Part shown: in pieces, positions 7,847-44,200 of the stretch
Layout of the letters: every line of letters begins with the position of its first letter
Numbering within the stretch: position 1 is the stretch's first letter
Source: Cloeon dipterum
Lineage: Eukaryota > Arthropoda > Insecta > Ephemeroptera > Baetidae
Length of the DNA stretch: 64,000 nucleotides
Reading direction: 5' to 3'
NCBI RefSeq assembly: GCF_949628265.1
Contig: NC_088790.1
Span: forward strand, 8,622,545 to 8,686,544
The notes under the pieces: generated by a model
Told to the model about the DNA's origin: nothing
Database searches by the model: none
The model's input: the letters and a program-made list of their open reading frames with translations, nothing else
Translations under genes and position numbers: made by a program

Positions 7847-7880
7847 TATAAAAGGGCGTCCAGTCGCTCCTCTCTCATTG
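7847..7880 (+). promoter_or_regulatory. Core promoter (TATA box plus initiator) of the yellow-EGF gene
   Basis: TATAAAAGG at 7847-7855 is a near-perfect TATA box. About 27 nt downstream, TCTCATTG (TCATTG from 7874) fits an arthropod initiator. A short non-coding exon then runs to a donor (GTGAGC at 7925), and an acceptor (tttttaatcag, ending 8051) precedes the coding exon. A strong TATA box suggests regulated, tissue-specific expression, as expected for yellow-family genes; that last step is inference. Confidence 0.75.
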
Positions 7881-8060
7881 TCTTCTACAAGTTATTACAT
7901 GCAGCTTTCTTCTACAAGGCAGTGGTGAGCGATTTTCTTATTTATTCGTGTTTTTTTGTTTCAAATAATTTTACTCTAAGATTATAGACCTGTGCACACA
8001 GTTAAGTCAAGAGACAACTCATTTAATTTCGTCTATTTTTGTTTTTAATCAGAAAACCTT

Positions 8061-10446
8061 ATGATGTCGCCATTCCCGTTTGTCACCTTTTTGCTCGGCC
8101 TGTCCCTGGTCTCTGCCATCAACCTGAGTAACCTGACCACCGTCTACGAGTGGCCAGACAAAATTGAATACGACTGGCCGTCAGAAACGTTCAAGACAAA
8201 GGTCATTCAGGACACAAGTTTCGAATTCAACGGCATCCATCCTCGATTCATGGCTGTCTCTCAGGAAAGGATTTTTCTTAGCCTGGCTGGCTATGGTGGC
8301 CTTCCTGCCAGCTTGGTCTTCATTCCGACAAACAGCACGTCTTCATCTCTGCCTCCTTCGCTTGCTCCTTATCCGTCCTGGGAAATGCATGTAAGTAAAA
8401 AAACATAGAATTTATCACCAAAAACTGAAGTTGGAAATTTGAAGCATTTCTTGTTCATGCTTACAAATTAATCGGTTTTAAACAAATTTCCTGTCACTGA
8501 AACTCCTGGAAAATCAACCAGCTTATTTTTAATCGAATCCTTAATTCATGAAAACTGACTAAAAACTGAAACTGACAATTTTACTCCAATAAAATCAACT
8601 AAAAATATTTGACCAAAATTCACATCTCTATTGCTCACTTATCTGTTAAGGGAAAAACAAGTTTTCTTATTAGGTTAATAATATTAATCGTGTTTTTGCA
8701 GAACAATGATATATGCGGTACAATTCAGTCAGCCTCAGGGCTGGAAGTGGACAAAATTGGACAGCTGTGGGTGCTCGATAATGGTAGCAAGAAATGCAAT
8801 GCAAAAATATGGATTTTCGACCTGGCCAACAGCGACAAAATCCAACACGTACATGAATTTCCTTTCCATCTTGGTCTGCACGACTTGGTTCTCGACGAGA
8901 CGCCTGACGGATGGTTTGCCTACATCACGCGTTTTGAAAAGGAACACATCGTCATTTTCAGCCTGAAAACGAACAAGTCATGGCTGCTGGACACACCGGG
9001 AAAATCTTTTTTATGCCTCGCCCTTTCTCCTAAGCAGGAAACGAGACTGTTGTATTTGGGAAGATTAGACTCTAATGAGCTGTATGCTATTTCCGCGAGT
9101 GAAATCAGGGATAGGAAACGAACTGCACATCCAAAGCTGATAGGAAAGTGGAATCAGGCGCCGTATAGAATGCTAATGGACGGCGCTGGCGTCATGCAAG
9201 CCGCCTTTTTCCGGAAGAAATACACCTCAACTTGGAACACTTCACTGCCTTTTGCGGAGAAGCCTTTCATTGAGGTGTAGCAATTTATTTTGTTAAAAAT
9301 AGACATCTAAACGTTCTCACCTGGCAGGTCGAAACCCTATATTCAAGATGGCCATTTGCTTTTGCGTCTGGCACTTCAAGGAACCTTTGGATAACAGCCT
9401 TCAATTGGAATGCCAAGCCGAGATACAGACTGCTCAAGGATGGAGTAGGAGCAGGCAAAAGATCTTATCTATATGACGCCTCGAAATGTAAACGTGAACA
9501 TTTTTTAAATAAATAAAATAACTGTTTTTTTCCAGTCGATTGTTTGGAGGGTTGCCACGATGAGCACGGCTACTGCTCAAGACCTGGCGAGTGCCTTTGC
9601 AAGGTCGGATGGAAGGGCAACTACTGCGACGAGTGCCACCCCTACCCTGGCTGCGTCAATGGCACCTGTAACAAACCCTGGGAGTGCAACTGCGAAGCCA
9701 GCTGGGAAGGAATGCTATGCGACAAAAGTAAAATACATTTACAATTCTTTAAAAGCTAAATGATCGAAATTGACTTTTTTATTTTCATTTTTTTCACAAA
9801 AGTACATGAATAATAACAGCCAGTTGGCTCACATTGTTAAGGCATTCTCAGGAGTGACAAAGCAATGGGAGATATTTGAGCAGCTACCCAATGTCAGAGA
9901 TGGCAAAAAGTGGTTAGTTTAGTGACTCGAAATGCTCAAATTGCTCAACGGGCTGGGAGGCGCACCGGCGCCGACTCGCTACTTGCTGGTTTGCACCTTT
10001 CCAGCATGCGTGATTTGGCTTCACGGGACGAAGTTCTAGCGTTTCAATGCAGTCCTCGGTGCGGGGGCAAGTGGCCCTTCAGAGGGCTGGGTCCCTGTGC
10101 GGCCTGGTGCGCCCATGTTATCCGTTCGCGGTGTTATTGGGACCCGGGTTTCAGCATTTCGTGCTAGCGCAGTGCGCGCCCTTCCCGGTCCTCGGACAGG
10201 GATAAAAAAAATAAAGAAACAGATAATTATTCATATTATTCAGCGCTGTGCAATCTGACGTGCAATCTGGAGCATGGCTCCTGCGTGGATACTGGCGAGT
10301 GCCTCTGTAAAACTGGGTGGAAGGGCGAAAACTGCGATGAGTGTCAATCCTACCCTGGCTGCACCAATGGCACTTGCAGCCAACCCTGGCAGTGCAACTG
10401 TGCTGCCGGCTTCCATGGAAAACTTTGTGATTTAGAAGATGAATAA
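8061..10446 (+). CDS. Secreted yellow/MRJP-domain protein with two C-terminal Delta-type EGF modules
   Basis: Exons 8061-8390, 8702-9274, 9328-9487, 9536-9727 and 10244-10446 give 485 residues with all phases compatible. Residues 1-19 ('[19 protein letters not shown]') are a signal peptide. About 25-354 is a full MRJP/yellow beta-propeller domain: '[18 protein letters not shown]', '[18 protein letters not shown]', '[20 protein letters not shown]', 'LDNG', '[17 protein letters not shown]' and '[14 protein letters not shown]' all match family landmarks. Residues 356-485 are two 12-cysteine modules, each resembling EGF1-EGF2 of Notch ligand Delta. No transmembrane segment or DSL domain is present, so the product should be secreted. 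Yellow proteins act in cuticle pigmentation and related secreted roles; the EGF part suggests an extracellular partner, possibly Notch (inference). ATGATG at 8061 is the first start after the 5'UTR splice. A dispersed repeat sits in the last intron. Confidence 0.92.
8391..8701 (+). other. Intron 2 of the yellow-EGF gene (within the MRJP domain)
   Basis: GTAAGT donor and 'tttttgcag' acceptor. AT-rich with no other feature seen. It is larger than the other yellow-EGF introns except the last. Confidence 0.85.
9536..9727 (+). other. EGF module A exon (Delta EGF1-EGF2 / DOS-like)
   Basis: This 192-nt exon is flanked by phase-1 introns on both sides, so it can be duplicated or inserted without breaking frame. 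It encodes 12 cysteines as two EGF units: '[20 protein letters not shown]', '[12 protein letters not shown]' then '[17 protein letters not shown]', '[10 protein letters not shown]'. The spacing, the shared C-D-E-C junction and Y-P-G-C / P-W-x-C-x-C are those of the first two EGF repeats of Delta/Serrate/Jagged and of the DOS motif proteins OSM-11 and DLK1. Confidence 0.9.
9822..10215 (+). repeat. Dispersed repeat, copy 1 (in the last intron of the yellow-EGF gene)
   Basis: About 390 nt, from near 'gttggctcacattgttaagg' to 'ctcggacagggataaaaa', nearly identical to 42892-43300. Relative to copy 2 it lacks about 20 nt (after 9881) and has scattered substitutions. The end is an A-rich tail (ATAAAAAAAATAAAGAAA), as in retroposed non-autonomous elements. 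I see no convincing target-site duplication, and no protein family in its open frame. It is GC-richer than the surrounding intron. Confidence 0.9.
10244..10446 (+). other. EGF module B exon (second Delta EGF1-EGF2 / DOS-like copy) and C-terminus
   Basis: The exon enters in phase 1 like module A and encodes the same 12-cysteine pattern: '[20 protein letters not shown]', '[16 protein letters not shown]', '[17 protein letters not shown]', ending LEDE and TAA. Modules A and B are close paralogues (both contain 'GWKG..NCDEC.-YPGC.NGTC'), so this is an internal tandem duplication. AATAAA at 10442-10447 overlaps the stop codon and is a possible poly(A) signal. Confidence 0.9.
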
Positions 10447-13400
10447 AAAGCAGAGAAAAATAATTTACTGGATTTTCTTTTTGAAGCGAATGATTTTTCT
10501 TTGATCCAAAATTCCAGCAATAATTTTTTGCTTCTTTGCTATCGTTCAGGGTAATTATAGATATTGTAACTGCGCAAGTAACTTTAAGCCGATCGCAAGC
10601 TCTCTCTAGAATACATCTCGGGTTTTTATTAATTCCACAGTCTACAGTCATTCAGACACGCCATACCGATATTTTCTGTAGAAAAAAACGGAACAGCTTT
10701 CAAGGAATAAATCAAACACGCAGTAGCTTCAAACATAATCAACTACTTGATTTTATTTGCATTTTAATCTTTTTACATTCCAGTTTTCACTTGGTTACAG
10801 CCTTAAGAGAAATCCCAAAGTGTTTTGTTGCTTTCTTTATTTGATGGATATAGATATGTTTTTATTTTTTGCCCATATACTCACGCAATATGACAACTCG
10901 GCTACGTATAATGCATGCATCCACATGGAACATAACTCCACTAAAAGTATCTCGACCGCGAGTGTGGTTGTTGTCCCCCTTGCGCGCCGCGTCAAGCTTC
11001 AAACTAACCACGGGAAACATTTTTTACGACTCGTTCACGACAGAAAAGTAATATTTCGTCACGCAGACGCCACTACACTCTTTTAAAACGACGTTTAATC
11101 ATGAACAACATTATTTTGATTGGGATGCTTGGAACATGTGAACAACTCTGGCAATGCAAACAGCAAATATTATTTTCACTGGAACGGGGATGGGGGGATA
11201 TAATTTTTGTCCCTATAACAGAGATAAATTGATTCAATTGAGATGCATGAAATAGCCAATTGATTAACATTTTCAAAAATAGCAGCAGGATGTTCCTGAT
11301 TCAAAACACTGAATAATGATATATAGAATATTTTTTTCTAACAACCCACTCGAACGAGGCGAAAAATTTCATTCCCTTTAAAACAAAATACTGTTTTCGC
11401 CGGCCTGAATATGCGGTTTTCGTGCTTTTGGTTTAAAATTTGTAACAACTAACGAGCAGGATGAGTGAGAAGGCTGTCAAAGGACTCTTTTTTAGTTACC
11501 ACAACAATCAAATACTTATCTACAACATTTTCGCAACCATTGATATAGAATTCCAATGAATATGTCGGAAGAGTCACTTTCCCTACTGAAGGATATAATA
11601 TATCGTAATTTCTGTGTTACTCTCTGCTTTCTCAAGTGGGATGACCTCACTCTCTCATATAGTACAATTCCCCTGCTCCCTACTTTTTGTTATGAACGCC
11701 TAGGATATTTTATTATTATTGCTTAAAGCTTGAAGAAGGCAGGCCAATTGTCACAAATATTGGCTGTTTGTAACAACAAAATTCCACATTCACTGTGTGT
11801 GTCTGTGTTATAAAATGACGCTTCTTTTGTTTGTCCCCTTTTGTATGGATATTTCACACTCGCTTGATTTTGTTTAATAGTTGTCTGCACGTTTGTATTG
11901 CATTTTGTATGTGACGGAATCTACATTCTTTATGCCAAAATAGCGCTGGCCACGGAAAACACTCAATTTCGTTTTGGTGGGGTGGCTTTCGGGGAGACAG
12001 GATATATCAAGTTGGTGGGCAGTGAACACTAATAGAGACAAAAACGGGGGACACGATTCTTAGAGCGTATGTTTTAAATATTTATATTTTCTGATATGCG
12101 CGCGTATCATTTTAACAGCATTTGTTCCCCGTAGGAAGAAAGAGTTTGCTCATTCCCTGGAGAGATTTTCAGAAAAAGCCTTGAATTCTACCTGAAAAAT
12201 ATCCCTGATTTTTAAACGATAGAATTGAGAGCTCCTTATTTGGATTCGCACCAGTTTTTCACGTCATAGACATAGATACGCAACCGGAACACTACATTTT
12301 TTCCGACAAAAACATTAAATATAATAGAACTACTCGCTTGTGACTACATGGGGAGCAGAGGTGAATTCCAATTCGCTACGCGGGTGGGAGCGAGGGCAGT
12401 TGGTTTCTTTTAAACAGCAGGATCGGATTCCGGATAAAAAAGGTACATAGAAAATTGATCAAGATTGTTAACCGTAAGGCAAGTCAGTTAAAGAGAGCCT
12501 TGTCTGTCATTTTCACCTGCGACACGCACTCCTCCATCCGACCGCACAGAGTCAAGTCGAGGTGCTGCGGTTCCTCGATTGACTAGAGATATGAGCGCGA
12601 GAACGTTGCACTGAATTTTGTCGCCGCGGGAGAGGTGTAACCACTCAACAGCTACTTGACTGCAAATTCAAGATTGGAAGACAGATAAGGGGTCATAAGT
12701 CAAAGGACATATACATATATGCTTTTTCTTTCACCGTATACATCAGTGTTAGTGCGGTCTGAATTGATCTCGGTTATTATTTATTCTCGCGTCTACAAGA
12801 GCAGAGGGGAAAATATAAAGCTATCAAGGGCAAGATGAACGCAAGTTTCTTTGTGGCATTCTGTGTTTGCTATTTGAACTAGGTGAGACGGTATTCGCAC
12901 TGTGTTTAGAATAACTGCTTTGGCTTCCACGTTTTGCACTTATGATCGAGGAAGTGAATTTACTGGCGACCGAAAACGAACGAAAAGGAGTTTAGCTCTT
13001 GAATCACTTTTGCTTGCATGACATGTGTGTGAGGATGTTCCAAACGCGTGATCAGTCGCAATTGAAAATTGTAGTGAATACATGGCTTGCTTGTTCAATT
13101 TTTTGCTCGAATTAATTTGAAAAATGGTCAAAAAATACTTGTATTAATATGCGCAAAATCCTGGTTCAGATAACATCATTCAATTACAATAAGGAAACAT
13201 CCATAAATTCCATATTTCACCGAGTATTCTAAACTTATATATTTTTTCTGCAACGCCAGCGTTTAATAAATAGAGTATCTCATTTTATCGCGCTAGAAAT
13301 TGTACAGCTTTTTCTGGTCAGATGGAAAATATTCCCCAACAATTCTGGCGGAAAATGCCGATTAGCCAGCTAACGCACCACAACAATCAAAGAAACCAAC

Positions 13401-13750: not shown

Positions 13751-14954
13751 CTAATTGGAGTCCTGACACTGGCTGATGGTGGCCGCGGAGCCCAATCTCG
13801 AGGTGCGTGGCTCAATTTCCAATGACATGTTGTACAGCTGGTCGTCGTCCAACAGCAGACTCGGGTCCAGCAGGTAGTTGGTCACCTTGGAGATCAATTC
13901 GATTTTGTACGGCGTCTGTTGGAAGTGGCGGATCTCGCGTATGACATGGGCGATCTGAAAATTATATCGTTTTTAATGAATTCAAAATTTTGAGATATAA
14001 TTAGAGCATCTATGAGACTTAAACCCACCATTCTCATTTTTGAGAAATTCAGTAAACCCTCGTCAGTGAAGTTTGGAGTGCCCTCCTCGATGAAGGAAAG
14101 ATCCGTCAGATACATGCCCAAGTAGGGGATGCAGGGAGGATCGCATCTGTGCAGAGCATCCCTCAAGTTTCTGAACCTGCCGTCGGCCGAAACAATAGTC
14201 TGCAGCTTTTCTATAGACTGCTTCGTCTGCAAAACGTTGTGTAAAGAAAAGAGTGTGAAAATATCTTGTTTTGCCCCATCTTTTTGGTGCTTACGGTTTT
14301 CGACACTTTCTCCCAAGTCTTCTTGAGGCGGAATACGGAACTGTTGGTGAAAGCAGCGCAGATTTGGAGGACGCCGTTGAAATTGTGCAGGCAACGACTT
14401 ATGTCGGCTACGGCGGCCCACTTCTCTATGGCAGCTATTCTGGCCGCCAAGTTGTCCCTGCGGATGATTTCAGAGACGACTAGGCGGGAGACCTCGTTGA
14501 AGCGTTTGGTCATCAGCAGAATGTGGTGTGCCTTTGTGATTTTGTCTGGCTTCATCCACGCTTGTCCCAGAAACTCTCTAAAATCACAGTGCTGTGAACG
14601 GCAAGGAAATTAATTTCAAAAACTCACTCGCTACAGATGGATATGAAGATTTGGTGGTCCAAATACGTCATTTGCTCTGCTATTTCCAGGGCGGACAGAG
14701 TCTCGATGCTCTCCTTGCTAGGATTCTGAAAAAAAGAAAATAAAACCTGCTCAAAGTAAAAATCAATGGACTACCTTTGGAGCTGCCAGCAGCCCTTCCA
14801 AATCCACTTTGACATGCTCTGGCTCCTCTCTGGTGATGAGCCGCAGGAGTTGTGATGCTGCTTTGTGTTCAGCTGGCAGTAGGTTTGGGCTGTATGTGAT
14901 GTCGTCCAGGAACTCGATTGTCATCGATTTCAGCCGCTGGTCCAGTTCAAAGTC
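13751..14954 (-). CDS. RASGRF: RasGRF exons: CDC25/RasGEF catalytic domain and C-terminus
   Basis: Exons 14954-14775, 14725-14628, 14577-14295, 14226-14029 and 13954-13751. Key blocks: '[17 protein letters not shown]', '[13 protein letters not shown]', '[14 protein letters not shown]', '[20 protein letters not shown]', '[16 protein letters not shown]', '[20 protein letters not shown]', '[20 protein letters not shown]'. The catalytic helical hairpin region is complete. The tail after 'MSLEIEPR' (17 residues ending SQCQDSN) extends slightly past the vertebrate end. Stop is TAG at 13751-13753. Confidence 0.97.
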
Positions 14955-17900
14955 CTGAAAAGATTTTACAATTTTTCACAAGTCCCAAGCATTTACTCAA
15001 AAGCCTAAGAGAAATTATAGTCAAGAAGCGCACTTAATCTATTATCATAGAGTTAAAAGAAGAGTTTTCTTTGCCTGAGCGTGCTTGGAAACCCAGTGTC
15101 TTAGCACGTTGAGCACCCTCATGGTTGCCGCTGTGGACATGACTGATTCCTTCCTGCGGTTCCTGTCTCTGCAGCTGCCACGCAGACTCATGGCGTCGCC
15201 GACGCTGCACCTGGAGGCCCTCTGCATCGGGGGCACGACCGGCGTGTGGTCCCTCGGGTTGCTCGAGGCCGAGGTGGCGATGGCGAACGCGGCCGCCGCC
15301 GACGACGTGCTTGACCTGCAATTTCCAGTTGGGTCTCAGCACACGGCAAAATGACACCTTGTATCATATTTATCGACCTCTATTTCGCCAGTTTTTTAGT
15401 GCAGTTTGGAAAAATCCTGCTATTTGCACAAATACCAATCAGGCTAGCATGCAATTTTCAGAAGAGAGAATTCACTCACCAGAGCGGTTCGTTTCCAATG
15501 CTGCCAGAGGAGAGCAGGCGCATTTGCACAAGGCATGATCAACATTAAGTGACAAGTAACTCTCAACAGCTCAGAGCCAAATATTTCATTCCGATATTAT
15601 GCAGAGTAATGTTATATTTTCTTCTGACCTTTCTTAATTCCTGCGCCGGAGAAATATTTGGCGAATCAACATTGTATATATGAAATATAAAACTTTCTAG
15701 TCGAGTCGAAATGAACGAGGGGTAAATAATTACGAAACATTTTAGGAGGTCTGAATGAGAAGGATTCAGACACACATTTATCGTTCGAATATATTTACAG
15801 AAGGTTATTTACAAAAGAGGTTCCGAAGCACATTTATATGTTGATTTAAGAGCAAGAATAAAACAGAACTCAACCCTCGAAAAAGAAGTAGAGGAAGAAA
15901 CAGTACAGTAGAAATGGGCGACTGAGAATCTCAATTGATGCGTCAAGAACGGAAAAAAAGATGAGAAAAACACTTACACAAAAACACGAAACATAACCAC
16001 AGAGAGTTCAGAGATAATAGATAGAGCTCGTTTATCTGTGTGTGATTTATAGTGCTCGACTTGCTTTCATGGGTTATATAGTATACAGAATAACGACAGC
16101 AGCAGTAAAAACAAGTGGATGCAAAATGCAGCCATCAATGAGTAAAATCGTTTGCTTGGTTCGAACAAGCGCGTCGACAAAAAATTCTCACCTTCTCTGT
16201 GACTGGCGGAAAGAGGTGATGACCACGCCAGCCTTGCTTGAGGTTTGCGGCGAGTCGTGCTGGAAGCTCGCCCTCTGGGACACGGTACCGCCTCCTTCAG
16301 AGTCAACCACAGATCTACGACCAGCGTAGTAACTCTGCAAAATAACAAGAATCATCGTGAATAATTTTAAAAACTTCATCATTTGCCTCAGATTTTTTAA
16401 AACATATTTCACACCTACCAAAACAAGACTGATTTTGTTCATCAATTAAGACGTACCTGGATGAACGAGGAAGCAACATTGGCAGTTCCAATCGAAGAAG
16501 ACCTGAGGGCAGCAGCTCTTTCCAGTTCTGCATCGTCCTGGTCTTCCAACTCAGTCACCGACGAGCGCTCGTTCCTCGTCGAAAGAGACGACTGAAATCA
16601 CGTTGTGCAGAACCGCAAATTTTAATCGTAGGATCATCTTACCCTGGCAGGAACTGCAGGTGGCTTGGAAGGTCGCGGAGGTGGATCTGGTGGGCGCACG
16701 GGTAGCGTCCTCTCTGGAGGCGGTGGCGGATGCTGTGTGGGAGACTGCGTGCTCTCCGACTTGATGATGGGCCTGCCGGCCAAAGTCTTGTCCGACTCGC
16801 CACTGTCCTCCGAGCTCGATGCCACCAAGGTCACCGTGCTCAGGTTGCCGGGCGAAGAGGGCATGCTCGTGACAGTGTCACCTTTCAAATTTGTATTTTT
16901 ATTCAAAGTTCGTTTGCTAAGTCTAGTAAGAGCGAATTTCTAACGAATTTTGTATTGACTAAATCGCATTAAGCTTTTTTAATATTTGCACTTGAAGAAT
17001 GCAAAAATACTCTACTACAATAAATTATTTTCATTGGCATGAAAGCATGGAAGCTACCATTTTTCTTATAATTTTGATTTAAATTTATTTTAATGCTGCG
17101 CTGATTTGACTCCGTTGTGGCAGAACAATTGAAAAAGAAAAACATTACAAAGCGATTTTTACACTGTCTTTTCCTACGATTCTCTTTTATTCTGGAGCAA
17201 ATGCAAGTAAATTATTTGTCCCTATTCAAATCAGGATCAAATAATGCCGACATAATAATTGCTGCCATCCCGAGATAAACATTTAGGCAACCTGCTAAGC
17301 GTATAGGACGCGCGGGTTGCATAATTACAAAAAACGCAGGATGAAACTTTTACCTGTGAGTGTTTCTGAGCTTGAGGAGACGGCGATGGACTTTGGAATT
17401 GTAAGGAACTTTGTGCCACAAGGTGGCTCTGCCTCGCCATCAGGGTCCACTTTCAAGGTGACACTTTTTCTAGGTGTGCCTGGCGACGAGATCACCGTGA
17501 CTTCTGTTGTTGCGCTTGCCTCGCGTATTTTTTGCAACCCAGTTGTCTGCTCATCTTCGACTAGATCAAGAACAAGAAAAAAATATTATTCCTTGTAGCC
17601 TTTCAGGTTTATTGAGCCTCACATTTCCTGAAGCTGCAGCGCCAGTGACCTTTGGAGTACCCTCCCGCCTGCGAGTCGTAACTGTGGCTGCGATCGCGGT
17701 CGCTCATCTCCGAGCCGTAGCCTGAAAGCAACTCTGAATGTTTTACCGTTCTTAAATGGGACACACCTAACACACGACAGGCACACCTGAGACGGAGCTG
17801 GCACCACTTGTTCTTCGGCACGGCGAAAGGGCACTGCTTCGTCGCCGCTCGGTGTCGTATAGGTGCAGCATGTTTGGGTCCTCCCTGCCCGTGATGCCTT

Positions 17901-20900
17901 CCATTGCCCTTAGAAACACAAGGAAATATTTATTTTGTAAAAAATCCAACAATTAAAAAATGACAACTCGACTAAAACCCTGCTAAAGAGTTGATAATCG
18001 GCTTACATAAAAGATTCGGGCCCTGCCGAGGGCTGGTCAGGCGGATCGGCGCTGTAAAAGACGCGTTTAAGCGCCTCAAGCACGGTGACGCCGTCGGTGA
18101 AGACTCGGTAGGTCAACAGGAAGGTGTTGAGGAAGTCGATGGACAAGAAGCGCAGGTCGGTGAGTCGCTCGAGCAGCCGCTCCGGCGTCGCGTATCTGAT
18201 CTGCGGCACTTTGCACGAGTTGAGCGTGCGGCTGAAGCGGATGTCAACGTCGTCTTTGAACAGCTTTGGGTCATTTTTAATCGACTGTGGCATCGTCACG
18301 CTCGACGTGTCTGACATGGAGCCGTGCAGCAGGTCGTTGAAATGCACATTGTCCATGCACTGCCAAATCGCACACAAAAAAAAGAAAAAAGCATTACTTA
18401 ACTTCGTAAATTGGTATTCAACCGATAAATAAGTAATTGTTTTTTTATGAAACGGACAGAGACCAGAAAAGCATAGTGTATCATCACAATGACATGAATC
18501 AGAATTGAAAATTTACTTTTGAAAATTCAGAAAAACGGATGCCATTGTCGCGTTCAGCGATTAGTATGCATAAGAACAACTATTGAGCTACCTTATCCAA
18601 AATTTACAGAATTTGTCAAATATTCTTTATCGTGGTAAAAAAAAAAGATTGGGTGCAAATATTGGATTTTGTAACTATTTTAGTGAAGGTTTTTCTTAAA
18701 TATCGAAAATTGGATTTAATTCCATCTAAGGTTTGAATTTGAGCACAAGCAGATACCACCTTTCGAAAACGAAGAAACATTTTGTGTGCGGCTAAAATTG
18801 GTGCACAAACAAAAGTTCTTGTAATGTGTGTGCCAACTGGCAGCCAACTGACTGCGTGCACGGTTTGACTATCGTTGCATTAAGTAAGCTCGTCCCCCTC
18901 GTCTGCCATCGAGTTAATTTGTCTTCTCAACAGCTACTTTAAATGGCTTCTGGATTTACACTATGTCCTGCGGTGCATGAAATTACGTGTATGAATAGTC
19001 GCGCGCGCAGATAGATCCAGCACACGCCAAACAGCTTAAAACGTAGGCACGCGCACCGCTGCCGCAGTTATATAATTGTTTGATTGTGAATTTTTGTGCC
19101 AGGTCAAATTAGGTAATAATTAATTAGGGGCGAACGTGCATATATTATTTAACTTTCGTGGTAGTAAAATATTTCTATATGCCAGAAATGAAAGTTACGA
19201 TTGAAAACATTCAAAAAAGATTACACTAAATATTACTTGTCAGAAACCAGTCAGAGCAAGCGCGAGAGCAGATGGAAAAACGTTAAAAAAGTCACCTGAC
19301 TGATATCGCTGATCCAGGCTTGCTTTTCCTGCATAGTAGAGGCGACCAGGTGGACCGTGATCTGGCTGCCAGCGGAACCCTGAGAGGCGCCGATGCCCGA
19401 CGAAGTGCTCTTCACGTCCAGCACGATCTTGAAGTCCCTGTTGTTGAAGTCTGAGAGCTTGTGGGCGCCACCCGGAGTCAGGTGAGACGTGCCTGTGTTG
19501 GCGCTGCTCTCACTCGTGCCGCTCGACTGACTCGACGCTGAGCACACTGAAGCACCTGAGCGCACGATTAGTGGACACCGGCCAGGCCACTGCGCCGCGG
19601 GGGGCATGCGGGGGTTGGGGGCGGCGCACGGGGGCCGCCCCAACATCCAGTCTGAGTCTCGATCAGGGAGCGGGGGCGGGCGGGCGGGAACACAACACTG
19701 GGCTAACAACTATTTTTTTTTATTCCGACAGCTGTGATTTGTGTGTGTTTTTAAATTCAAGCAGGTTCTATGCGATTGCTGATAGTAAGTGGGGGACTTT
19801 TTATCGGGAGTAAGGTATTTTGGCTTGAGAGAAAGGTTGCGGAATTTGCCGCCTAAAATTGTGGGTTACAATTTTGATAATCAACGTTTGGTATTATTTC
19901 TTGCAGTCAGTCAGATGGATCCAGACTTGGGAATTGAAGCCAATGAGCTTTTAATTAATAAGCTTTATAGATGAGAACATTTTTTATGATTAAATTAAAT
20001 CAAATACAACCGAATCCGAGACTTATAATCACAATTAAAATAATTTTTTCAGACTAAGAAAATAACTGTACCTTCTTGAACAGAACATTACGTATTTTAA
20101 CCAGCAGACGACCAGAATAATTTTTCGTAGTTTCTAATAAGTATCAACCACCATAATTGAAATATTTAAAACCAGTGAAATTGAAATTAAATTGACTAGT
20201 CAAATATTTGCTATTTAAAAACCAACCTGATATACCGAAATCAAAGGCTTTAGTTCCCAAGTCTTTCAATAGTGGGACCTTAGAAACTATTGAATCATTT
20301 TCAAGCATGCCAATTCCAAAATGCAAGCATTTTATGTAATACCAGAAATTTTCTGTGGACTATGTTGAAATAATTGAAGCAGAAAAATTGAGTTTTAAAT
20401 TCACGTGTTTCAAAAAGGCCAAAACAACTGTTTTTTTTCAGGCAAACAGAAACGAGGTAAAACGAGCAGGCACAGACACGCCATTCAACGTTGTCAGGCG
20501 GCGGCCAAAAATGAACAGCGAGAGGGTTTCCAAGGGAGGGGACGTGCGGTCATTTTGCTCGCTCGTCCCGCTGCTTTCCGATTGCGCTTTTCCAAGACCT
20601 GTCTAAGCAAGGCTTTCGACTCATTCAGCAGGGTGTGTGAGAATGCAGGTTCTGAGAATAAAGGGCCTAGAGAGACCTGGTTCCCGCGTGGAGGCGGGCT
20701 TGAGTAGATGTTGGGGCGACTGGGCCGTGGAGGATGCCATACCGTCATCGTCTGTTGCAGCGCTCGACTCGCTCGGGTCCTCGATCAGCACGGCGTCAGC
20801 CAGAGGGATTTTGCCGATGTCCGGCAGCAAGTGCAGACGCCCTCCAGATGTCCTGTGCAAATTACATGAATTCAACACCAAGAAAACTTGAAACTGGAAT

Positions 20901-41200: not shown

Positions 41201-44200
41201 TTTTCATCATCTTCTCTCTTTCTCTGTTCGAGCTGTAAGGTTCATGGAGTGAAAGGGGGAATAAGAGACTCCTTACCTTGCTTCTCTGATGGCCTCGATC
41301 CACATTTTGCAGTCGGTTTCGCTGTTGGCCCGCAACTCGTACTGACGCTGGTTCTCCCGCCGGTACGATATCGCGAAACAGTACTGCGAACAAACACCAA
41401 ATTGCGATGGTTATTACACCGAAACAATGAGACACATCAACTGAAAATTGCATCTTTGAAAACCGACAAAACGGTTAATAATTCAAAGTGCCTCTGAGTC
41501 AATCCAAAATTTGCAAGTTTAGAAGCTCAGGAGTCGATTATTCAAATTATGTTATTCTAAAACAGTCTTTTGTCAACTGTCCGCCCTTTTGTGATAGCCT
41601 GCTCCGAATCTTCCTTGAACAAGCATTGGTGGGTACTGGGTATAAATGTTGTCGGATGCGAGCAAGTGATGCGTTGTGAGGCTTTATTTGTCCGTTGGTC
41701 CCGCGTCTCCTTTCTCGCTCGATGGAACGACAGAATGATGCCCTGGGGCCGGCACATGCTCATGAGAGGCGAATATTTTGGACTCACGGCACGTGGCCAA
41801 GCTGGCCTAATCGAATTGAACGTGTTGCCCATGAAATTGGCCGCGTGCAACACTACTTTCCGCAGCTCTTGCGGGCATCAATTATGCAACCGCTGGCAAA
41901 ACGTACTTGACGGCGCATTACGCAAAGTGCAGCACGTGGCCAGCATCGAGCCCAACAGCAGCTAACACTCATTAATTATTAACACAGGAAATGAGAACAG
42001 TGTGCAAATACTGCTTTTTATTTCTAGATTTTCCCACTTCGCTGAAAGCCTTTGAAAAATGAAATAATTCCCCAGGGTTCCCAGAGGATTATGCACGCTA
42101 ACTTTTTACATACCAGAAAATATATAAAATGGTCTCTCACTGTCAGAGGTGGACGAAATAATATTCATTTTCACGCTCCCACAATTTCAAAGTGCTTAAA
42201 TAAATTTCGCGTGCTGAGGTTAGAGATTTCAACCACACGTGTGCGGCTTTGGAGCAAACTAATGTCTTGGGTGGTTCTATTCTATGAATGTCCTTGGTAG
42301 GTCGGTTTACGAAATTTGCGGCTTGGTCAGGCGGATACTTAATGTTTAGAGCTGCGCCTTGGGCATTTCGATGAAAATTCATAACAACGGTGCAAAAATT
42401 TGTATTTTTAATGTTACGAGGACAATAGAATCCAGGAGATTTAGAAGCTACAATTTTTATAAAATCACACACTAAACACGAATCGTTTTATTTTACGTTG
42501 TTCTAAATTAAAATCTTAAAAGAAGGTATTTGCTAGAAAAGATTAAATAGAATTCGAAATATGTGGTTCAGTCTGCCTTCCTGCACATTTGTAATTTGTG
42601 GGAATAATGACATGAAACAAAGATGAACAATATACCTGTGGAAAACAAAAGGGAATTATATTTTAATGGTGGACAACTTTTCTTTGCACTGTTGCTGCTC
42701 AAGCCCGTGATAGGCTTAAGAAACATTTTCTGTGCAAGTGAGGTGGAAAAATAAGTTGCAAAAAATATTGCTTGGAGGATGGTCAACGTTTCATTATATA
42801 AGAAAAAACTAGCTCAAAACGAAATAGAAGCGTTATTTCATCACCATTAAATTCCTCAATTCTAAAAAGTTTTTTAGAATTTGCTTTGCCAGCGCGTTGG
42901 CTCGCATTGTTAAGGCATTCTCAGGAGTGACAAAGCAATGGGAGATATTTGAACAGTTCGGAGATCTAATACTGGCTACCTTATGTCAGAGATGGCAAAA
43001 AGTGGTTAGTTTAGTGACTCGGAATGCTCAAATTGCTCAACGGGCTGGGAGGCGCACCGGCGCCGACTCGCTACTTGCTGGTTTGCACCTTTCCAGCATG
43101 CGTGATTTGGCTTCACGGGACGAATTTCTAGCGTTTCAATGCAGTCCTCGGTGCGGAGGCAAGTGGCCCTTCAGAGGGCTGGGTCCCTGTGCGGCCTGGT
43201 GCGCCCATGTTATCCGTTCGCGGTGTTATTGGGACCCGGGTTTCAGCATTCGTGCTAGTGCAGTGAGCGCCCTTCCCGGTCCTCGGACAGGGATAAAAAG
43301 AGCAAAAAAGCTTGAAAATAGCTGTAAAGCCCCCATCAGACATCTATAACTCGAGCTCCTACTTCCAATGAAGGCGTTTGAACAGCCTTCCACCGTGCAC
43401 TGGCACTAATTAACGAGCAATTTCATACCGCAGCTAGCAACTTATCATCTATATCATATTGTTTATCTGACGTAACGAGAGCATGCATGGTTGTTTGGAG
43501 CTTCTGCATCAGTTTGGCTCAGTATAGCAAACTGCATTCGTTCCTGTAATATTCCACCGCAAAACGCAAAAGCGGAGGCGAGCGAGCAAGTGCTGCACAA
43601 CTTGTTGCCTACCTGGAGAGGGGCAAAAAGCTCGTTCATTTGCTTAGCAACGTGTAGCGGCCAAGGGCTTTCGAGAACGGCGGCCGGGTCGGTCGAGAGG
43701 CCAAGGGGGCACGATCAGAATTGCAAATCGCCAGCAGCAGCACTGCCTGGCCGACCGAAATAGCTTATTTCCCTCTCCCGCGGGACTCGGAAGAATAATA
43801 ATTTAGCTAAATTTATTTGCTTTTCTCTTCTCTTCGGTCGGCTCCTACTCCATTGCCAGCACGAGCTGAATTAATCGAATTAATTAGCTACCGCGCTAGC
43901 ATGATGGCAGAAATTGTGTCTTTTTAAGAGTGGATATTCATTCTTCTGCTGATTTTTCATCTCAGCTTTGATAAATTACTATCTACCTAAAAGTTGCAAT
44001 CAAATTGCAATGATAATTCCTGTTTGAACCTTTCCAACATAGGACCGTATTTCTGAGTTGAGTTCTATTTCTTTGCAATGTAAGATAAGCAAAGACACAA
44101 CAAAAATAAACGGTTAAGTAGCTGAGTAGAATAAATAAAATTAAAAAAGCAATCCATCACGTGATCTCACTTTAACGTTTGATCCATTCCTTTCCTTACA

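Follow-up and report, generated by a model that had tools for sequence, protein, structure and literature searches.

How does a protein of the yellow/MRJP family come to end in EGF modules of the kind carried by Notch ligands, and what could such a tail do? The question is raised by a gene on the plus strand at positions 8061 to 10446 of the window, by which we mean the whole 64,000-nucleotide stretch of Cloeon dipterum DNA that was analyzed; it lies on contig C5 of the genome that we searched (190.1 Mb, 10 contigs). The gene had been predicted from its sequence as one continuous, phase-compatible exon chain, and this was borne out: it has five exons, its introns are all GT-AG with fitting phases (0, 0, 1, and 1), and the frame stays open for 485 codons. 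The spliced product is 100% identical over its full 485 amino acids to the database entry "protein yellow-like [Cloeon dipterum]" (P0001), and an independent gene model thus joins the same five exons. The sequence and model of this gene are already in databases, under that plain name.

Exon 1 (8061 to 8390) holds the start codon, a signal-peptide-like N terminus, and the start of the MRJP propeller, as judged from the splice model, the database protein, and the predicted structure. Exon 2 (8702 to 9274) encodes most of the propeller (splice model, Pfam, predicted structure, and Foldseek), and exon 3 (9328 to 9487; splice model and predicted structure) adds its final strands and ends in phase 1. 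In the splice model, propeller and EGF tail are separated by intron 3 (9488 to 9535), which is 48 bp long and of phase 1. Exon 4 (9536 to 9727; 192 bp, phase 1-1) carries a whole EGF1-EGF2 pair and exon 5 (10244 to 10446; 203 bp) the last pair and the stop codon, assignments that draw on the splice model, exon comparison, and the EGF tree. Upstream, on the same strand, a TATA-box-like TATAAAAG at 7847 to 7854 may be a core promoter, and 7877 to 8060 reads as a possible 5' UTR with an intron at 7925 to 8052 (gtgagc...tttaatcag).

The genome sequence search also placed a high-copy interspersed repeat within intron 4 (plus strand, 9905 to 10220). It recurs at about 42997 to 43299 of the window, is SINE-like by eye, and had 2,793 first-look candidates in the genome, 40 of which, including the repeat itself, were scored and were 94 to 100% identical. 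Elsewhere in the window, the minus strand at 13897 to 18512 holds exons with RasGEF and RasGEF_N domains, and a hydrophobic frame of 251 residues at 1812 to 2567 has by eye the look of a gustatory-receptor-type 7TM protein, with no Pfam match at 0.01.

We then evaluated the domains of the 485-residue protein. Pfam placed MRJP at 51.8 bits (gathering cutoff, 19.8; E value = 1e-13) in two stretches, the best of which spans only positions 1 to 104 of the 288 in the profile. Over residues 31 to 340 of an AlphaFold2 model built on a 68-row alignment, the mean pLDDT per ten-residue block mostly exceeded 90, with two blocks at 86 and 73. When this model was used with Foldseek, the best 8 rows were the Aedes dopachrome conversion enzyme, MRJP1, and a yellow-type sand-fly salivary protein, and a profile search of PDB sequences returned MRJP1 (2.5e-21) and the Aedes enzyme (2.2e-19). 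The full yellow/MRJP domain of the original prediction is thus supported by Pfam, the modeled propeller, and Foldseek together, and residues about 21 to 341 are predicted to form the propeller, with the two EGF1-EGF2 pairs making up the remainder. The protein appears to have its propeller in common with the known structures of the family (Aedes enzyme, 9w1k; MRJP1, 5yyl; sand-fly protein, 3q6k) but adds C-terminal EGF pairs to it, and its identity to them is 17 to 19%.

The tail itself contains the 24 cysteines that had been read as two copies of an EGF1-EGF2 pair, and we counted them as two pairs of 12. Most of the tail has a pLDDT below 50 in the AlphaFold2 model, few aligned rows reach it, and the model is uninformative on its fold. 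In Pfam, the tail matched EGF_DL_JAG at 85.9 bits and JAG1-like_EGF2 at 48.8 bits (cutoff, 27 for both; E values = 1.8e-24 and 7e-13), and its best match among PDB sequences was EGF1-2 of DLL1, with EGF1-2 of JAG1 and JAG2 also among the best; the pairs are of the Delta type, as had been proposed. Pfam listed no DSL domain at E values up to 1 and no MNNL domain. The N terminus is hydrophobic and signal-peptide-like by eye, and no hydrophobic stretch was seen by eye past exon 3, the C terminus being LCDLEDE; the lack of a DSL domain and of a membrane anchor had both been predicted. The tail shares its pair type with Delta and Serrate, whereas DSL, MNNL, and transmembrane parts are missing. OSM-11, DOS-3, and DLK1 likewise have a DOS-like module and no DSL domain but lack the propeller.

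Whether the pairs are DOS motifs in the strict sense depends on one residue. The DOS consensus given in a figure legend of PMC11162419 asks for K, V, E, or R at position b; both window pairs have Leu there and fit at the remaining positions, so that they match in the relaxed form only. The DOS-like pair type of the original prediction held, with the correction that the window pairs depart from the strict consensus as that legend gives it, which also sets them apart from OSM-11, DOS-3, and DLK1. A chance cysteine pattern was ruled out by the Pfam and PDB sequence matches and by shuffling of the tail, since even the relaxed DOS pattern appeared in only 7 of 20,000 shuffled tails.

The window gene has sisters. 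P0004 and P0005, two database proteins encoded within C2:1365591-1371092, each have a propeller followed by one EGF pair, with the same propeller-EGF joint as the window gene. Next to them, gene D (C2:1358614-1361963) is apparently a fourth yellow-EGF gene, in which a propeller is followed by four pairs on exons of 189, 192, 192, and 203 bp, the last as long as the terminal exon in the window; its joint requires a weak donor, GTTA|GTTCAA. P0004, P0005, and pairs 3 and 4 of gene D fit the strict DOS consensus, pair 1 of gene D fits only with the b site relaxed, and pair 2 does not fit even then. The label "DOS-like" is thus correct for the window gene and "DOS" for several of its sisters. Searches that required shared 5-residue words yielded lists of 117, 17, and 120 proteins, the last from 7,985 scored candidates sharing the most words. 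Among the proteins listed, three combined MRJP with EGF_DL_JAG, all from C. dipterum, and none corresponded to gene D. No other mayfly was among the source names, some rows being nameless; with a word-based search this does not imply absence elsewhere. An open-license literature search found no description of the yellow-EGF architecture, its donor, or varied yellow tails: by term search, the main text of the mayfly genome paper PMC7250882 lacks "yellow," "royal jelly," and "MRJP," PMC11491810 has "yellow" once and as a color, and passages of PMC6945029 show no such fusion.

Next, we looked into where the tail could have come from. A Delta-like gene at C2:2955575-2957288 lies inside an array of yellow genes; about 1.07 kb downstream of it, on the same strand, is an MRJP gene. 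We call it C901-type, a label that follows how its fly relatives are named in the database and that reflects similarity and build rather than a gene tree. C901-type arthropod proteins have tandem EGF1-EGF2 pairs, as the window protein does; the Cloeon gene has three different pairs and another EGF, a partial DSL match (profile positions 17 to 45), and no propeller, and the window gene, with two pairs and no DSL domain, does not have this build. The exons for its pairs 2 and 3 are 192 bp long and of phase 1-1, equal to window exon 4; the pair 3 exon has a GC donor in the gene model. At the protein level, Cloeon C901-type pair 3 and the third pair from Galleria show 73% and 75% identity, respectively, to window pair 1. 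In each of three foreign C901-type proteins tested, the third pair alone fit the DOS consensus. A separate case of C901-type pairs in company with another domain is P0093 of the beetle Euwallacea fornicatus, where they occur with lipase-type domains, which could reflect a further capture or a merged model.

A search of the genome for DSL domains found three places, all of them outside C5, and both loci with a near-full DSL domain, which are the DSL ligands, divide EGF1-2 between exons. We also constructed an EGF tree (41 rows, 60 columns), in which 27 of 38 inner branches were open. The Delta pairs formed a separate clade (96/98), and another clade (97/96) united the terminal pair of the window gene with those of gene D, P0004, and P0005; the fork that sets the yellow-EGF, third, and Delta pairs against the first and second pairs was weak (49/98). 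The split exons and the tree disfavor Delta or Serrate as the donor. By sequence comparison, the nearest source of the window tail in this genome is likely the C901-type gene, and the 192-bp phase 1-1 exon, the 73% protein identity, and the position within the yellow array make its pair 3 the likely donor. We infer the direction and the number of captures.

The setting of these genes is a large expansion of the family. At least 146 places in the genome matched the window propeller, of which by our own count at least 114 covered exon 2, and Pfam MRJP had at least 199 matches; the expansion occupies C2 at 0.35 to 5.35 Mb and 35.6 to 36.6 Mb and is also present on C1, C4, and C5. A genome search with the terminal EGF pair gave weak, partly broken matches on C2, and 177 kb of C2, chosen largely because of those matches, were scanned for relics. 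The scan found 24 EGF clusters, of which 20 were preceded on the same strand, at no more than 1.5 kb, by an MRJP hit and 4 did not fit a place 3' of yellow genes; one of the 20 was a false hit inside exon 2, which leaves 19 decayed pair relics. Control scans of window positions 12001 to 64000 (52 kb) and of 10 kb of C2 that hold no yellow genes gave no relic hits, and 500 kb of block-shuffled sequence gave 2. The many relics indicate that the EGF tail is dispensable. None of the six yellow genes at the top of the propeller-search list had a relic 3' of exon 3, so that the tail was not universal, and the idea that it once belonged to the whole yellow family is unsupported.

We placed these genes on a propeller (MRJP) tree of 87 rows and 350 columns, from which 8 truncated proteins and one short relic were left out and in which 8 locus rows were merged into database proteins at 92 to 97% identity. 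Fifteen of 16 relic genes fell within one 21-row clade (98/90), and a clade of 67 rows (96/95) had the window gene, gene D, and P0004/P0005 branching close to its base. The four genes with intact EGF tails did not form one clade, and having, or having had, an EGF tail required at least three changes among the tested genes. One early capture followed by many losses and a few transfers both fit this tree.

Tail and body also have different histories in places. When gene D was compared with P0004 and P0005, dS over the 183 codons of propeller exon 2 was 1.26 and 1.55 (5% bounds, 0.91 and 1.07), and over the 65 codons of the terminal pair it was 0.26 and 0.14 (95% bounds, 0.42 and 0.25); the bootstrap ranges of body and tail did not overlap. 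This suggests that the tail exon may have been exchanged between paralogues by conversion or recombination, the alternative being unusually strong constraint on silent sites. P0068, which has a transmembrane tail, points in the same direction, with a tail 75 to 76% identical and a body 55 to 57% identical to those of P0045 and P0046. For the EGF modules (NG86, 60 codons each), dN/dS was below 1 in 13 of 13 comparisons, ranging from 0.03 to 0.54 with two values near 0.5, and retained tails thus appear, with wide error, to be under purifying selection.

The EGF pair is one of several kinds of tail. Among the 78 Cloeon MRJP proteins listed, 76 could be classed by hydropathy and cysteine counts alone (two annotations are mixed, and the counts are of proteins, not genes): 34 had no tail, 17 a transmembrane tail, 8 another tail, 6 a GPI-like end, and 3 an EGF tail, and 8 were truncated; the alignments of P0092 and P0095 were too short. 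Eight of the 34 tail-less proteins are products of relic genes. The labels clustered on the MRJP tree, with no shuffle as low as the observed for relics (0/500), transmembrane tails (0/500), or all labels together (0/200); GPI-like (66/500), EGF (29/500), and absent (141/500) tails were not clearly clustered. GPI-signal-like C termini were seen by hydropathy in P0006, P0009, P0018, P0020, P0042, and P0059. A tyrosine-containing stretch, NPVSPEMVHEEIENDLYGV, recurs on the cytoplasmic side of the transmembrane-tailed P0031, P0045, P0046, and P0068, which might hint at signaling or sorting. In the older C. dipterum annotation, P0002, P0003, P0128, P0129, and P0131 (817 to 1,005 amino acids, named "Hypothetical predicted protein" or "Bee-milk protein") are perhaps neighboring yellow genes merged.

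The reading that we favor, and hold to be probable, is that a yellow gene took up the third-pair exon of a C901-type gene and that the resulting protein works through its propeller and is docked by its EGF pairs on an extracellular partner. The third EGF1-EGF2 exon of the C901-type gene in the C2 array would have been captured by a yellow/MRJP gene of the expanded family, and, with matching phase-1 introns on both sides, splicing would keep it in frame after the propeller. Other yellow proteins bind a small molecule or protein, and the propeller, as the working part, would presumably do the same. The EGF pairs would dock it on a partner outside the cell, for which the partner of the third C901 pair is the simplest candidate, and the tail would be an exchangeable address within the family, in the form of an EGF pair, a transmembrane segment, a GPI-like end, or none. 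The starting point of this argument, the fusion itself, would fall if propeller and EGF exons were two adjacent genes joined by annotation. C901-type and yellow genes do adjoin on C2, and EGF pairs are intact modules; on C5, however, the EGF search gave exons 4 and 5 alone and the DSL search gave nothing, the terminal pairs group by themselves in the EGF tree (97/96), and a separate EGF transcript is unlikely given the 48-bp intron 3 with its fitting phase, the database model, and the same joint in P0004 and P0005. We regard such an artifact as highly improbable.

If the DOS-like pairs bound Notch, the protein would be a soluble Notch modulator, to which the propeller would add only stability or targeting. 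Secreted DOS-only proteins of C. elegans such as DOS-3 can act through Notch (PMC11162419), and Dll1 is aided in binding Notch by its DOS pair (PMC6986876); both window pairs retain, as YPGC, what we read as the same conserved Pro of Dll1, and the strict consensus is found in P0004, P0005, and two pairs of gene D. Against this stand the Leu at position b in the window pairs, the lack of a DSL or MNNL match, a literature search for C901 that turned up no paper on a Notch role, and growth in copy number with decay, which would be odd in a dosage-sensitive pathway. The family setting, with its large yellow array, different tails, and relics, lowers the odds of a one-off Notch ligand and raises those of a modular docking tail, and we rank docking in general ahead of the Notch reading, which we consider doubtful. 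A structural role in an extracellular matrix, for instance the egg coat or the cuticle, with both propeller and EGFs serving as building blocks, also seems unlikely to us: the nearest structures do include MRJP1 oligomers and royal-jelly filaments, yellow genes are many, and the tails are Cys rich, yet the transmembrane and GPI-like tails of paralogues are better suited to cell surfaces. Docking, our preferred reading, has a bolder extension that we offer as a speculation with rather little chance of being right, in which the yellow family would be a combinatorial recognition system, secreted and on cell surfaces, with exchangeable tails (DOS modules, transmembrane segments with a conserved cytoplasmic motif, and GPI-like ends), and its EGF-tailed members would diffuse and modulate either Notch or the C901 partner.

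Within one genome, then, a natural case of exon shuffling is visible with its likely donor, its recipient, a matching intron phase, and copies both kept and decaying. On C5, the window gene represents a dispersed copy with two EGF pairs, and through such genes an extracellular propeller family gains a module of the Notch-ligand type. The other tails suggest that yellow proteins can become membrane bound by tail replacement. Should the EGF tail prove to bind Notch or some other partner at the cell surface, secreted modulators would have been built on the yellow/royal-jelly scaffold in an insect lineage.
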